The position numbers were made by a program, and so were the translations under genes. Of a stretch of 32,658 nt of DNA, positions 2,792 to 32,368 are shown piece by piece; within the stretch, counting starts at the first letter, position 1, and every line of letters begins with the position of its first letter. Location of the stretch: the NCBI GenBank assembly GCA_012838865.1, contig DUOK01000069.1, positions 1 through 32,658 on the forward strand. The letters are read 5' to 3'. The notes beneath the pieces were generated by a model. That model ran no database searches. It was not told where the DNA came from and worked only from the letters and a program-made list of their open reading frames with translations. This DNA comes from Bacteroidales bacterium (GTDB lineage Bacteria > Bacteroidota > Bacteroidia > Bacteroidales > Marinilabiliaceae).

Positions 2792-4534
2792 ATGCTTACC
2801 AAACTCTTAAACCGACTCATGGGGCTTTTCATTTCAGAGCAAAACGAAAAGGCCGACATGGATACCAAAGTAAAATCACTCACCATCAACCTGGCCAGCA
2901 TCACCTTTACACTCGTTGTTTTGTCCGAAGGTGTTTGGTCTCTGGCTGTTGAGCGGGTCGAACTGGCCATTCCTTTTCTATTTCTAAGCTTCTTATTGGC
3001 GCTCAGTCATCTTTTTCTTAGAAAATTCAACGAAGACCTGCACCAAAATTATCTGCTGTTCATTCTTTGGCTCACCTGCAGTTTTTTCGTTCTCTTTGGT
3101 GGAAATGTCGGAAGCGGTGCAACCTGGACCCTCCTGTTTCCCTTTTTTGCTACTGCACTTCAGGGACGAAGAAATGGCTTGCGTTGGTCGCTCCTCCTCT
3201 TCCTGGTCATGCTCTTGCATTTGAGCCTGATTCAAAACAGCCAGGCATTTTTCCAAAACTACAGCTCAGCTCAGGGGGTGTATTTGTTGGCTATATACGC
3301 AGTGGCCACTTTAATTGCCTTTGCCTTTCAATTTATTCGCTCAGAGGTCTTACTCGAAAAAGAGGGCTTGTTGCTTGACTCCCAAAACAGAAATAGAGCG
3401 CAGGAAGATCTTCTTTCCCGACTTTCACATCAAATAAGAACACCCCTAAGCAACATCACAGGCGTTCTGGATATGTTAACCAATACCGATCTGGACCCGC
3501 AACAAAAAGAATACATCAGCACCATTCATGCTTCGGCCAACAATTTGGTGGGCGTAGTCAATCACCTGGTGATGGCGTCCCACTCCGATGCCTCCGAAGA
3601 CAAAGACATCACCAGCTTCAATCTCTACAATACGCTCAACAATGTCTTGCGCCTGTTTCCCTACGAAAAATTCAAGGTGCGCTTCAACTTATTACTTGCT
3701 CCCGACATTCCCGGTCAGCTGACCGGCAACAGTGTAAAAATCAAGCAAATTCTATTGAATTTAATCAACAGCATTGCCGCCCAAAACAAAGCAGAACAGA
3801 AACAAATCACCCTGGAAGTGCGCAACCGCGACTTAATGCCGGGAAAAACAGAGCTCACCTTCTCGCTCACATCCGATTTTGTTTTTCAAAGCCCGGACGA
3901 CCGACACTCCGGAGAAGGCTTTTTCAACAATCAGGATTTGGCCCGCCTCAATGCCGGACGCATCATTCATTTTCTGGATTTGGGCCTAACACAAAAGATG
4001 ATTGAAGTCGACGGACACAACCTCAGCATTATCCCTTACCCCAACCGCACAGTTTTCGAATTTGGCGCCGGTTTCAGCACCCATACAGGCCCCTTTTCGG
4101 CACCTGCCAGTAAAACAAACACCCAAAACAGCAACAGTTTCAAGCGCAAAGTTGAACTGAAGGATGCCTCCATCTTATTGGTCGAAGACAATTTCAGCAA
4201 CCAGCAGATCATGAATCTCTACATCAAAAACGATGTCAAAAAAGTGGAAACAGCCTCCAACGGAAAGGAAGCCCTTGAGAAATTTGGAATGGCCCGCTTC
4301 GACCTAATACTTATGGATGTACAAATGCCCATTATGGATGGCTTTAAAGCGACCCAGAAAATTCGGGAGTTGGAAAAAAGCACAAACACTCATGTGCCCA
4401 TAATTGCCGTCACAGCCAATGCCTTTCCTGAAGACAAGGAGCGCTGTCTGGCTTCCGGTATGGACGACTACATCAGCAAACCCTTCCAACCCGATGAACT
4501 CTTGGATAAAATCAGGCAGCACCTCAACGGTTAA
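2792..4534 (+). CDS. Membrane hybrid histidine kinase/response regulator with a degenerate ATPase domain
   Basis: 580 residues from the ATG at 2792; an in-frame TTG at 2756 would add 12 residues but overlaps a promoter-like TAATTTG, so I prefer the ATG. Order: five or six hydrophobic segments (about residues 35-182), a linker helix, a HisKA dimerisation domain with H-box SHQIRTPLSN (His about 213), a poorly conserved HATPase region (about 315-430), then a complete receiver domain (about 458-580) with LLVEDN, phospho-acceptor Asp in ILMDVQMP (about 509), and the SKPF lysine. The HATPase region keeps the helix ILLNLIN, but the next Asn of the N box is Ser, no DTGxGI is present, and the GLGL box is reduced to DLGLTQ. 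It may therefore not bind ATP, and could serve as a phosphotransfer or phosphatase module. The gene ends tail to tail with the SpoIIE gene, the stop codons sharing bases. No DNA-binding output domain is present. Confidence 0.88.
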   Translation: MLTKLLNRLMGLFISEQNEKADMDTKVKSLTINLASITFTLVVLSEGVWSLAVERVELAIPFLFLSFLLALSHLFLRKFNEDLHQNYLLFILWLTCSFFVLFGGNVGSGATWTLLFPFFATALQGRRNGLRWSLLLFLVMLLHLSLIQNSQAFFQNYSSAQGVYLLAIYAVATLIAFAFQFIRSEVLLEKEGLLLDSQNRNRAQEDLLSRLSHQIRTPLSNITGVLDMLTNTDLDPQQKEYISTIHASANNLVGVVNHLVMASHSDASEDKDITSFNLYNTLNNVLRLFPYEKFKVRFNLLLAPDIPGQLTGNSVKIKQILLNLINSIAAQNKAEQKQITLEVRNRDLMPGKTELTFSLTSDFVFQSPDDRHSGEGFFNNQDLARLNAGRIIHFLDLGLTQKMIEVDGHNLSIIPYPNRTVFEFGAGFSTHTGPFSAPASKTNTQNSNSFKRKVELKDASILLVEDNFSNQQIMNLYIKNDVKKVETASNGKEALEKFGMARFDLILMDVQMPIMDGFKATQKIRELEKSTNTHVPIIAVTANAFPEDKERCLASGMDDYISKPFQPDELLDKIRQHLNG

Positions 4535-30223: not shown

Positions 30224-30253
30224 AAAAAAGCTGTCCTTGCGGACAGCTTTTTT
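30224..30253. terminator. Bidirectional terminator between fabD and ilvA
   Basis: AAAAAAGCTGTCC (30224-30236), loop TTGC, GGACAGCTTTTTT (30241-30253). The GC core is 7 bp and each strand ends in a T run, so it can stop fabD and ilvA transcription alike. It begins 11 nt after fabD and touches the ilvA stop codon. Confidence 0.9.
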
Positions 30254-31494
30254 TATATCAACAAATGAAACAAATCCGGCGAATCATTGACCGACCTATA
30301 ATTAAAGCCATGTTCAGTCATCCTTTGAACCATCGCATCCCTGTCGGCCAGGCTCTTGGTTTCAATCCCCACTAAAGCGGGACCCGTATCGCGACTGTTT
30401 TTCTTGGTATACTCAAAGTGGGTGATGTCGTCATCGGGACCCAGGATCTCATTGACAAATTCTTTTAACGCACCAGACCGCTGGGGAAAGCGCACTATAA
30501 AATAATGCTTTAGGCCCTCATACAGCAGGGAGCGCTCCTTGATTTCTTCGGTACGGGTTATGTCGTTATTGCCCCCACTCACCACACAAACCACCGTCTT
30601 ACCCTTGATCTTATCCGCCATAAAATCAAGTGCAGCAACACTCAAAGCTCCGGCGGGCTCCACTACAATAGCCTCTTCATTATACAACTGCAGAATGGTG
30701 GTACACACCTTTCCTTCGGGCACCAGCAACAAACCATCGAGCACCTCCCTGGCAATTTCAAAATTAAGTTCGCCCACAGTTGCAACAGCCGCGCCGTCAA
30801 CAAACTTTTCAAAACCCTCGAGCACAATTCGACTTCCGGCATCAAGCGATTTTTTCATAGCAGGAGCCCCCTCGGGCTCCACGCCTATGATTCGGGTAGC
30901 AGGACTCTTAACCCGCAACCACGAACCCAGGCCACTCACCAAGCCTCCACCGCCAATAGGCGCCATCACATAATCAACAGGAAAATCAGTCTGCTCCAAC
31001 AACTCCAATCCGATGGTCCCCTGTCCCGCCATCACCAGCTTATCGTCAAAGGGATGAATAAATACGGAGGAATGCGCTTTACAATCGGCCATCGCAGCCT
31101 CATAAGCCTGGTCATAAGTATCGCCAATCAAAACTACATCCACCCACTCTCTCCCAAACATGCTGACCTGTCGAATCTTTTGCTTGGGCGTAGTCGTAGG
31201 CATAAAAACACGCCCCTTTATACCCAGGTGACGACACGATAAAGCAACCCCCTGCGCATGATTACCTGCGCTGGCACATACCACTCCCTTGACGCGCTCC
31301 TCCTTAGTCAACGATGCAATCTTGTTAAAAGCGCCCCTTATCTTATAAGATCGAACGGTTTGCAGATCTTCCCTCTTAAGATAAACACTTGCCCCATAAC
31401 GCTCAGATAAAATCTGATCCTTCATCAAAGGCGTTCTCTGCACAACCTGCTTTATGCGTTGCGCAGCTTCTTCGATACTCTTAACTGTTATCAT
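30253..31494 (-). CDS. ilvA: Threonine dehydratase (threonine ammonia-lyase)
   Basis: PLP enzyme converting threonine to 2-oxobutanoate, the first step of isoleucine synthesis. 413 residues. The PLP lysine is Lys51 in SYKIRGAFNK, the phosphate-binding loop is PIGGGGLVSG (181-184), and ASAGNHAQGVA is conserved. After about residue 330 follows one ACT-like regulatory domain (HYFIVRFPQRSGALKEF), in contrast to the two in E. coli IlvA (514 residues). That domain suggests allosteric control, probably by isoleucine, rather than the catabolic TdcB type, which is only about 330 residues. It stands alone, without other ilv genes. Confidence 0.95.
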   Translation of the reverse strand: MITVKSIEEAAQRIKQVVQRTPLMKDQILSERYGASVYLKREDLQTVRSYKIRGAFNKIASLTKEERVKGVVCASAGNHAQGVALSCRHLGIKGRVFMPTTTPKQKIRQVSMFGREWVDVVLIGDTYDQAYEAAMADCKAHSSVFIHPFDDKLVMAGQGTIGLELLEQTDFPVDYVMAPIGGGGLVSGLGSWLRVKSPATRIIGVEPEGAPAMKKSLDAGSRIVLEGFEKFVDGAAVATVGELNFEIAREVLDGLLLVPEGKVCTTILQLYNEEAIVVEPAGALSVAALDFMADKIKGKTVVCVVSGGNNDITRTEEIKERSLLYEGLKHYFIVRFPQRSGALKEFVNEILGPDDDITHFEYTKKNSRDTGPALVGIETKSLADRDAMVQRMTEHGFNYRSVNDSPDLFHLLI

Positions 31495-31604: not shown

Positions 31605-31641
31605 TGTTCGGAAACGAACACCAAGCATCCGAAAACGAACA
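31605..31641 (+). promoter_or_regulatory. Two phased upstream activator sites
   Basis: TGTTCGGAAACGAACA (31605-31620) is a 6-bp inverted repeat around GAAA. A second copy, CATCCGAAAACGAACA (31626-31641), matches 12 of 16 positions, with its right half (AAACGAACA) identical. They are 21 bp apart centre to centre, two helical turns, as in tandem binding sites for enhancer-binding proteins. They lie about 85 bp before the -12 position of the sigma54-like promoter. Confidence 0.55.
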
Positions 31642-31695
31642 ACACCCGCCTGCCTTCACAAAGCTAAACACCTGATTTACATTTCTTTAAAATAA

Positions 31696-31712
31696 TTGGC
31701 ACAGGTATTGAT
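31696..31712 (+). promoter_or_regulatory. Sigma54-type (-24/-12) promoter
   Basis: TTGGCACAGGTATTGAT fits TGGCAC(G/A)-N4-TTGC with the exact spacing between the -24 GG (31698-31699) and the -12 position (31710-31711); the -12 C is A here. Transcription would begin near 31722, giving a leader of about 74 nt. No housekeeping-type -7 element competes in this interval. Confidence 0.5.
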
Positions 31713-31744
31713 AAACCATAAGCATAAGAATCAAAAACAAACTT

Positions 31745-31795: not shown

Positions 31796-32305
31796 ATGAA
31801 AAGAAACAACATCATTTCCGGAATCGCAGTAAGCTTTATGCTCCTCGTTGGAATTATTTCCGCCAGTGCCACTTCAGCATCTGAAACCCTCTCAGGCAAC
31901 TCTCAAACCCTCCTGGGAGAATACCAGATCACAGAATTGGAGCCAGAAACAGTAAACAACGAAACCATGCGTAAGTTTCAGCTCGACTATGAAAACGGCG
32001 TTGCACCAGTAACCATTTACCTGAGCGAGCGCAGAAATTGCCGGGAGTATATAGTTCGCAGCAAGGTAATGGAAGTTCAGTACGTATGCAACAAAAAAGG
32101 CTTTGGGGCTACACCTGTAAGCAGTCGCAACAGCCTCTATCCGGCACAAACCAATAAAATGTTTCTTTCTGCCGAAGCCCTTGGCTACCAGGAAAGAATA
32201 ACCGAGGGAGAAGTGGGACTCCAGAAAGCATTAGGACTGATTGCCTGCTACTACCCTTCCCTTCTGAAGAACATTCAAAATCTTGCAAAAGTTACCCAAA
32301 ATTAA
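31796..32305 (+). CDS. Small exported protein of unknown function
   Basis: I do not recognise the family. 169 residues. The N-terminus MKRNNIISGIAVSFMLLVGI followed by ISASATSASE is a signal peptide with a plausible cut at ASA or TSA. The mature part, about 140 residues, has a beta-rich first half (YQITELEPE, APVTIYLSERRNC, MEVQYVCNKKGFG) with two cysteines about 18 residues apart that may form a disulfide, then a helical C-terminal half with one more Cys. No lipobox or enzyme motif is visible. ATG at 31796 is the only sensible start. It is a single gene between a sigma54-like promoter and a strong terminator, so it is probably expressed under special conditions. Confidence 0.75.
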   Translation: MKRNNIISGIAVSFMLLVGIISASATSASETLSGNSQTLLGEYQITELEPETVNNETMRKFQLDYENGVAPVTIYLSERRNCREYIVRSKVMEVQYVCNKKGFGATPVSSRNSLYPAQTNKMFLSAEALGYQERITEGEVGLQKALGLIACYYPSLLKNIQNLAKVTQN

Positions 32306-32328
32306 AATAGGACAATTAATAAAGGGGG

Positions 32329-32368
32329 AAAAGCTCCCAAGGCGTGGCCTTGGGAGCTTTTTTTATTT
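32329..32368 (+). terminator. Terminator of the small exported protein gene
   Basis: AAAAGCTCCCAAGGC (32329-32343), loop GTG, GCCTTGGGAGCTTTT (32347-32361): a perfect 15-bp stem followed by T4 and ATTT. It starts 24 nt after the stop codon. The A-run on the other side would allow it to act on leftward transcription as well. Confidence 0.92.

Follow-up and report, generated by a model that had tools for sequence, protein, structure and literature searches.

A likely sigma54-controlled envelope regulon marked by paired palindromic sites in Marinilabiliaceae

We show that a small gene for an exported protein in a member of the Marinilabiliaceae is preceded by two palindromic sites and a sigma54-type -24/-12 element, that its close relatives retain all three, and that the same site recurs upstream of other genes, among them the gene for an NtrC-type regulator, EBP-L087. 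Taken together, the conserved sites, the candidate regulator and the recurring groups of site-bearing loci suggest that this gene is one of the outputs of an envelope regulon under sigma54 control, in which a sigma54 promoter would be served by tandem sites for EBP-L087. We consider this reading likely, in the absence of transcript, binding or mutant data.

The control region and its gene

The window, by which we mean the whole 32,658-nt stretch of DNA analysed, is the entire contig C284 of a 3.08-Mb genome. The gene of interest (31796..32305, + strand; hereafter the window gene) encodes a 169-aa exported protein of an undescribed family, with a signal peptide recognised by inspection. Three elements precede it: enhancer site 1 (31605-31620, no strand assigned), a perfect palindrome of the form TGTTCG-N4-CGAACA (TGTTCGGAAACGAACA); enhancer site 2 (31626-31641, likewise strandless), CATCCGAAAACGAACA, which has a degenerate left half and the consensus TATCCG-N4-CGNACA; and a sigma54-type -24/-12 element (31696-31712, + strand), TTGGCACAGGTATTGAT, with its GG at 31698-31699. 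Site 2 is identical to site 1 at 12 of 16 positions and starts 21 bp from it, while the -24/-12 element starts 91 bp from the start of site 1, or 83 bp from the centre of that site. The -12 reads TTGAT, compared with the textbook TTGCW, and TAnnTTTG, the Bacteroidota -7 element, is absent from the 260 bp preceding the ATG. These results bear out the earlier note, which had described the palindrome, its 12/16 second copy 21 bp away, the -24/-12 element and the lack of a -7 element; the positions are confirmed, and the transcript start that it had placed at 31722 is predicted here at 31723, from the position of the element and without transcript data. An rpoN gene is present in the genome (PF00309 match at C78, above cut-off). 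Sigma54 control, also claimed in that note, is supported by the sequence, and dependence on RpoN is inferred.

The control region is real and lies beyond chance. In the 260 bp upstream of the window gene, neither the double-site score of 21/24 (best shuffled score 18) nor the TTGGCAC-N5-TTG score of 10/10 was matched by any of 1000 dinucleotide shuffles. The shuffle test was run on eight of the 16 close family members described below, the window included: the double-site score was reached in 0/1000 shuffles for seven of them and 1/1000 for one, and the promoter score in 0-3/1000 for six, with 159 and 204/1000 for L014 and L017, in which the promoter on its own is not significant. At the window the pair of sites is strictly helically phased (21 bp), and the target promoters are likewise.

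A search for the protein family gave 25 matches in 80 genomes, 22 of which, the window's own included, hold a member. Among the 16 close members (the window and 15 others, within L002-L017), those aligned show 41-91% identity to the window protein, and all 16, across the Marinilabiliaceae, keep both sites and the -24/-12 element at a nearly fixed distance. Their site pairs align without internal gaps at a spacing of exactly 21 bp; site 1 is TGTTCG-N4-CGAACA in 16/16, with a few changes in some, and in site 2 the positions A25, T26, C28, G29, G35, C38 and A39 (alignment numbering) are invariant. A GG-containing -24 is present in every member, as exact TTGGCAC in ten and with one or two changes in six. 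The TTG of the -12 is correctly spaced in all 16, but its usual C is replaced (TTGAT, TTGGA, TTGTT). The centre of site 1 lies 82-84 bp from the -24 in 15 members and 93 bp from it in one. The earlier note had held that lack of conservation in related genomes would refute its reading; this was examined and is not the case. In a scan of 450 bp for each of nine distant members, the double site was found in L020 alone (18/24), with 95 bp from the site-1 centre to the -24, about one helical turn longer. L025 has a single site, with one mismatch, that lies 94.5 bp ahead of the sigma54-like TTGGCATGGTGTCTGTT, and L023, which belongs to a different family of the order, has a two-mismatch site ahead of a sigma54-like TTGGCATGGCTGTTGT. 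In L018, L019, L021, L022, L024 and L026, no site better than three mismatches of 10 was found in the 450 bp scanned.

One alternative is that the palindromes bind an unrelated activator or repressor, that the -24/-12 is coincidental and that a sigmaA-type or other promoter is used. In its favour, the promoter score alone is non-significant in two of the eight members tested, as given above, and the scanned stretch contains two 9/12 sigma70-like matches, compared with a shuffled mean of 1.4. Against it, the -24 GG and the -12 TTG are kept in 16/16 at a near-constant distance, with TTGGCAC-N5-TTG exact in 10/16, and TAnnTTTG is absent within 260 bp in 13 of the 16 (single copies occur in L005, L011 and L016). 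Moreover, the loci described below show the same sites preceding a -24/-12 at MacB and M16 genes and a -24 at a small RNA, and adjoining the gene of a sigma54 activator. We regard this alternative as very unlikely.

The sites could also serve the divergent neighbour at 30253-31494, which we take to be threonine-dehydratase-like, rather than the window gene. This idea is supported by the divergent layout found in Geofilum, Alkaliflexus, Natronoflexus and ANBcel2, all of which share this neighbour. In Marinilabilia, however, the gene is found elsewhere in the chromosome next to a different neighbour, and both sites and the -24/-12 are retained, pointing at the gene. That the relocated gene keeps its sites argues that they belong to the window gene, and the neighbour can be all but excluded as their target.

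The window gene is followed by an intrinsic terminator (32326..32364, + strand; 18 pairs, then a T run) and, given this strong terminator, is inferred to be monocistronic. Both the terminator and the single-gene unit claimed in the earlier note hold for the window, with the qualification that the gene is one member of a regulon. The description of the product as small, exported and unrecognised also holds: no Pfam match was found at E <= 10, and NCBIfam gave a single non-significant match (E 0.064), far below the family cut-off. The predicted structure (mean pLDDT 84) has antiparallel strands and C-terminal helices, with residues 1-27 at low pLDDT (<50), and Foldseek returned nothing below E 0.9 for this model. 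The best VIA match, to an actin capping protein, had a middling Z of 6.4, with an rmsd of 4.6 over 100 aligned residues, and was taken as generic, which leaves no convincing solved fold; a known family outside the databases searched remains possible. Cys82, Cys98 and Cys151 are kept in most family members and are gone together in L068. The most distant members retain chiefly Cys98 and Cys151, from which we infer that a 98-151 disulphide is possible. The closest named protein relatives are those of Geofilum rhodophaeum (92% identity) and Geofilum rubicundum (71%), which makes the host a Geofilum-like member of the Marinilabiliaceae. Separately, short palindromes like CCCAGGACTGAAGTCCTGGG occur 3' of the terminator, at the contig end (32387-32630).

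Other loci carrying the site and the candidate regulator

Within the window's own genome, the strict site TGTNCGNNNNCGNACA occurs eight times, compared with three for a reversed-pattern control. Six of the eight fall in four regions upstream of regulon genes (labels partly by inspection): one at the EBP-L087 regulator and ABC operon (C32), a pair before genes for an ATPase and two MacB-type permeases, with a TolC-like gene further on (C46), a pair before two M16 peptidase genes (C188), and one at the window gene (C284). The remaining two lie well within ORFs (C318, C326). Relatives repeat these groups of site-bearing loci. Allowing at most one mismatch, the double-site pattern has 30 matches in 71 family genomes, compared with three for the reversed pattern: 16 at the window gene, which is one of the best-conserved targets of the site, six between an EBP-L087 orthologue and the ABC operon, two at MacB-like operons, two at DUF2807-like lipoproteins (labelled by inspection) and four elsewhere. 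The search of the genome for the 16-bp site and of the regions upstream of homologues, both proposed in the earlier note, thus found the site recurring at regulon genes and conserved in homologues.

Two profiles gave the same groups. With R1, built from the target sites alone, nine of 53 non-target matches (the two strands of a place counted apart) lay upstream of an EBP-L087 orthologue at a distance of no more than 600 bp, where 0.005 were expected. R2, built from 26 pairs, was applied to eight genomes, and at E <= 0.06 all 18 places found outside its training set were at recurrent groups (one target, four M16, four MacB, two EBP/ABC, five small RNA and two C92/CBAH pair). This cut-off was chosen after the list had been seen, and because G010 and G028 are sister species the 18 places represent fewer independent events. 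Beyond E 0.06 there were six places, one a MacB operon and the other five without group assignment. In another family (f50), strict sites showed no genome-wide excess (1, 1 and 2, compared with 5, 1 and 3 for the control). The C92/CBAH places, L240 (G028:C49) and L242 (G010:C4), have the site pair between genes for a Peptidase_C92 lipoprotein and a choloylglycine-hydrolase-family protein; a promoter scan gave no -24/-12 at either, and the Pfam labels come from L242 alone. At L049 (G023:C73), tandem 21-bp repeats (CATTCGTTATCGGGCATCCGG) match the site pattern by repetition, which we take as chance.

The ABC operon has a -24/-12 directed at it, which in several genomes reads TGGCATGGTTTNTG, and the double site lies downstream of this element, close to the start codon. 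For MacB promoters (TTGGCAAGATGATTGTTA and similar) the distance to the centre of a site is 93.5-95.5 or 115.5 bp, M16 promoters in G012, G010 and G028 (TGGCCTG-N3-TTTGT) lie about 95 bp from the distal site, and the own M16 operon has a weaker -24/-12, TTGGACTGATTTTTGA, with one site at a distance of 83.5 bp and the other at 105.5 bp. Off-phase promoters are those of the ABC operon in G002 (47.5 bp) and G001 (59.5 bp), and one in G003 (108.5 bp). Over the regulon, helical phase gave a Rayleigh p of ~6e-6 on 25 related rows and p = 0.24 in nine classes; as it is significant only when related rows are counted apart, we do not claim it regulon-wide. The helical phasing asserted in the earlier note therefore holds strictly for the 21-bp pair and the target promoters, and is a possibility, merely suggestive, beyond them.

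The regulon families recognised in Pfam are MacB_PCD/FtsX, ABC_tran, DUF2807, Peptidase_M16 and Peptidase_C92 (one or two members of each scanned), with DUF2807-type proteins tied to the site in G002, G008 and G040 only and none in the own genome. Judged by these families, the members act in or on the envelope, and some are of unknown function. The label "envelope-responsive" given earlier to the window gene is supported by the company that the site keeps, not by an induction experiment.

EBP-L087 (C32:8045-9418) is an NtrC-type response regulator whose Response_reg (receiver, PF00072), Sigma54_activat (PF00158) and Fis-type HTH_8 (PF02954) domains all score above cut-off. It belongs to a genome with 11 proteins above the PF00158 cut-off, five of them with strong matches; one of the five, L088, has nothing resembling GAFTGA. 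A kinase gene follows that of EBP-L087, and genes for an ABC ATPase and a MacB/FtsX-type permease are divergent from it; beyond this ABC operon lie what we take to be SecDF- and TatA-like genes. In the kinase, two membrane helices were recognised by eye, with only ~8 residues between them; this arrangement, two helices and a very short loop, is like that of intramembrane-sensing kinases.

Orthologues of EBP-L087 (>=73% identity) are present in 44 of 71 family genomes. Of these 45 orthologues, 30 had their upstream regions fetched, and 29 of the 30 carry the site, with 26 perfect and 39 one-mismatch sites in total; dinucleotide shuffles gave 0 perfect and 0.35 one-mismatch sites, and the first 600 bp within genes gave 0. 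G003 is the exception. In that genome a transposase-like 422-aa ORF (by inspection; L159:4885-6150) lies between the regulator gene and the ABC operon. The site is also present at three of three orthologues of ~61% identity in another family. At L154 (G002:C211) a stop interrupts the orthologue, of whose 458 aa the first 344 were matched, and the frame of the kinase gene is split; the two may be pseudogenes or draft errors, and the sites persist there.

It could be argued that the mechanism is right and the regulator a different one (L084, L085, L086 or a paralogue), the site at EBP-L087 then reflecting cross-regulation. Association with the gene's own upstream region is indeed indirect evidence, and G018 has the window gene and sites with no EBP-L087 orthologue found (this genome is 72% complete). 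Against this, no site was found in the loci of four other own-genome regulators, nor in 17,413 bp at 20 paralogues, and an EBP-L087 orthologue occurs in 15/16 genomes with the gene and sites, compared with 29/55 others (Fisher p = 0.003, uncorrected for the tree, EBP-L087 alone having been profiled). We therefore judge a different regulator very unlikely. EBP-L087 is the likely activator at the window sites, by association only, its binding being inferred without binding data; with this proviso, the enhancer-binding protein that the earlier note supposed to be encoded elsewhere now has a specific candidate on another contig. The main biochemical doubt is that 32 of 33 EBP-L087 orthologue loci have GAFTDA and one GSFTDA, with the canonical GAFTGA in none; activation of sigma54 by EBP-L087 is inferred. 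One paper lists GAFTDA among the variants that would retain activity (PMC4641369), and another states that the effect is unknown for the protein it studied (PMC10714721).

A putative small RNA and its predicted target

The five small RNA matches of R2 fall in the gap that separates a LolC/E-like permease gene (Pfam FtsX, MacB_PCD) from the NUDIX gene that follows. The interval from the sites to this NUDIX gene contains a conserved block, TGGCATGCTTTTTAT or similar, and about 24 nt past the GG comes a stretch of 60-70 nt whose 5' part is unpaired (approximately GGTTTAAATTAATAATRGGACAA), followed by a terminator hairpin, in which five of 15 pairs are changed on both sides among five sequences (0/500 shuffles). 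At E <= 0.01, a covariance model of the RNA gave 24 matches, spread over 21 of the 71 genomes. Eighteen were accepted as the RNA gene and six set aside (L258, L262, L263, L265, L266, L267), two of the latter being SusC leaders. A site with at most one mismatch occurs within 300 bp of 14 of the 18 RNA loci, accompanied at 21 bp by a degenerate second copy (2-4 mismatches), and TGGCA is found at -25/-26 in 16 of the 18, the -12 being weak. Rfam gave no match at gathering for the two loci searched. The anatomy of a small RNA appears complete (own promoter, short transcript, terminator and conserved unpaired 5' block), as inferred from sequence alone.

The own copy of the RNA (C206:22014-22077, + strand; L251:1501-1564) has a -24 and no site better than two mismatches within 1400 bp, and the copies in G004 and G001 are likewise without a site. 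With no site near the own copy, control of it by EBP-L087 in this genome is not supported. The weak matches L258, L262, L263 and L266 are possibly related RNAs in genus g13; as labelled by inspection, one follows a SusD-like gene and has the same block and hairpin, and three lie near a thiL-like gene with a shorter block and hairpin. A CpxQ-like RNA freed from the 3' UTR of the window gene, where AAATTAAAATAGGACAA before the terminator resembles the small RNA block, was also considered and set aside because such a block occurs in only two of 16 close members (the window and G004).

A search of 12 genomes for the 5' block of the RNA, allowing three mismatches at most, gave 16 matches, compared with one for the reversed control: eight at the RNA gene, five in SusC-type leaders, one at a DUF5020 gene and two elsewhere. 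The SusC-type matches, in five of the 12 genomes (G000, G002, G004, G010 and G028, the own genome among them), lie on the opposite strand, and in each case their end is separated by 9-10 nt from the ATG of the same receptor gene, which follows. In the own genome the leader paired by the block is that of the SusC-type gene MKKVLLALSFVMVFG... (L273; C136, complement of 3726-3748), whose product has TonB plug and CarbopepD_reg_2 domains. The complementarity between block and start region spans ~23 nt, with wobbles and, in G010 and G028, a bulge. Predicted duplexes reach -30.9, -35.4, -30.9, -26.1 and -26.1 kcal/mol in the five genomes as ordered above, with 0/300 shuffled leaders as good in each case. 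Among 86 own start regions the receptor is best at -30.9 kcal/mol, followed by -21.5, with a median of -11.65. Differences in the block among the five genomes are A/G or C/U changes that preserve a pair or wobble. The DNA of the SusC-type leader and first codons looks nearly identical in the five genomes, which span two genera, and this suggests a constraint at the RNA level.

The same search returned the RNA gene only, and no SusC-type leader, in G001, G003 and G012, one unrelated match in G017, and nothing in G022, G026 and G035, where the block is more diverged. A second target, a DUF5020 protein in G004 paired 11 nt before its gene, is weak (-20.4 kcal/mol, equalled by 10/300 shuffles), and the matches at G017:C298 and G002:C174 are not at starts of plausible targets. 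We predict that the small RNA silences the SusC-type receptor; its production and the repression are both inferences.

Proposed mechanism and comparison with known systems

In the mechanism that we propose, the kinase next to EBP-L087 would sense a membrane disturbance, envelope damage or crowding, and phosphorylate EBP-L087, which would occupy TGTTCG-N4-CGAACA / TATCCG-N4-CGNACA in tandem, with dimers placed ~62 and 83 bp ahead of the -24, and loop to sigma54-RNA polymerase at TTGGCAC-N5-TTG, so that a one-gene transcript for the small exported protein begins. The same site would drive the regulator's own divergent region and the ABC ATPase/FtsX-permease operon, as well as a second MacB-type export operon, M16 proteases and, in some genomes, DUF2807 proteins. 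Pumps, proteases and small exported proteins would then increase and, in many genomes, apparently not the own, the RNA would lower the SusC-type receptor by pairing with the start region of its mRNA. The window product may be a periplasmic or surface helper in this envelope response; both the inducing signal and protection of the envelope by this protein are inferred.

A bolder reading, which we think slightly more likely to prove wrong than right, is that Marinilabiliaceae possess a complete sigma54 envelope stress response that reinvents the enterobacterial design. Its parts would be an NtrC-type regulator, an intramembrane-sensing kinase and an ABC exporter, with pumps, proteases and an exported guardian protein (the window gene product) raised, and in many species its RNA arm would be a 60-70 nt RNA, made at the same time, that shuts a SusC/TonB receptor through ~23-nt pairing just upstream of the start codon. 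This RNA arm, itself an inference, is the newest part of the regulon.

In our judgement, envelope stress control in Bacteroidota is little known. In the literature searched (mostly open access, so absence is unproven), we found no sigma54 activator of envelope genes and no envelope small RNA in Marinilabiliaceae, nor any paper treating this family together with rpoN. In Flavobacterium psychrophilum, also of the Bacteroidota, sigma54 promoters have been mapped that drive genes for envelope stress, exported proteins of unknown function and a single putative regulatory RNA, and three proteins have a sigma54-interaction domain (PMC9723704). That SM4 regulon differs in its list of genes (chaperones, gliding) and in that the relevant sections give no activator or enhancer sequence and no Rfp36 target (PMC9723704). 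In Bacteroidia, predicted sigma54 promoters are enriched at genes of COG0577 (ABC antimicrobial-peptide permease) and COG0842 (multidrug permease) (PMC12316311); that study rests on promoter matrices, with regulator-target assignment absent from its relevant sections and no mention of "marinilabil" or "UAS" in its main text. More generally, sigma54 has been argued to control the bacterial exterior (Francke et al. 2011; PMC3162934). The present case fits published sigma54 regulons and, where Bacteroidota sigma54 activators are without assigned sites or targets in the relevant sections of the cited papers, adds a candidate regulator, its site and a target list. Regulator, DNA word, targets and RNA arm are named together, in genera with cultured type strains (Geofilum, Marinilabilia, Alkaliflexus and Natronoflexus).

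EBP-L087 resembles NtrC-family enhancer-binding proteins in its receiver, PF00158 and HTH_8 domains and in the use of tandem palindromes, spaced by roughly two helical turns, ahead of a -24/-12, and differs in its GAFTDA, its 16-bp TGTTCG-N4-CGAACA and its regulon of envelope genes. In Firmicutes, BceRS/LiaRS-type intramembrane-sensing kinases adjoin ABC exporters. Those systems share with the present one a two-helix kinase with a very short loop near an ABC ATPase/FtsX-type permease; here, in contrast, the response regulator is a sigma54 activator and the envelope is Gram-negative. The enterobacterial SigmaE, Cpx and Psp responses use the small RNAs MicA, RybB and CpxQ. The likeness lies in exported stress proteins combined with a small RNA whose 5' end pairs at the starts of outer-membrane-protein messages, whereas here sigma54 and an NtrC-type regulator would be in charge and a SusC-type receptor is the predicted mRNA, and we claim no homology. 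If the RNA works as predicted, separate lineages would share one logic, in which pumps and proteases go up and outer-membrane receptors are silenced.
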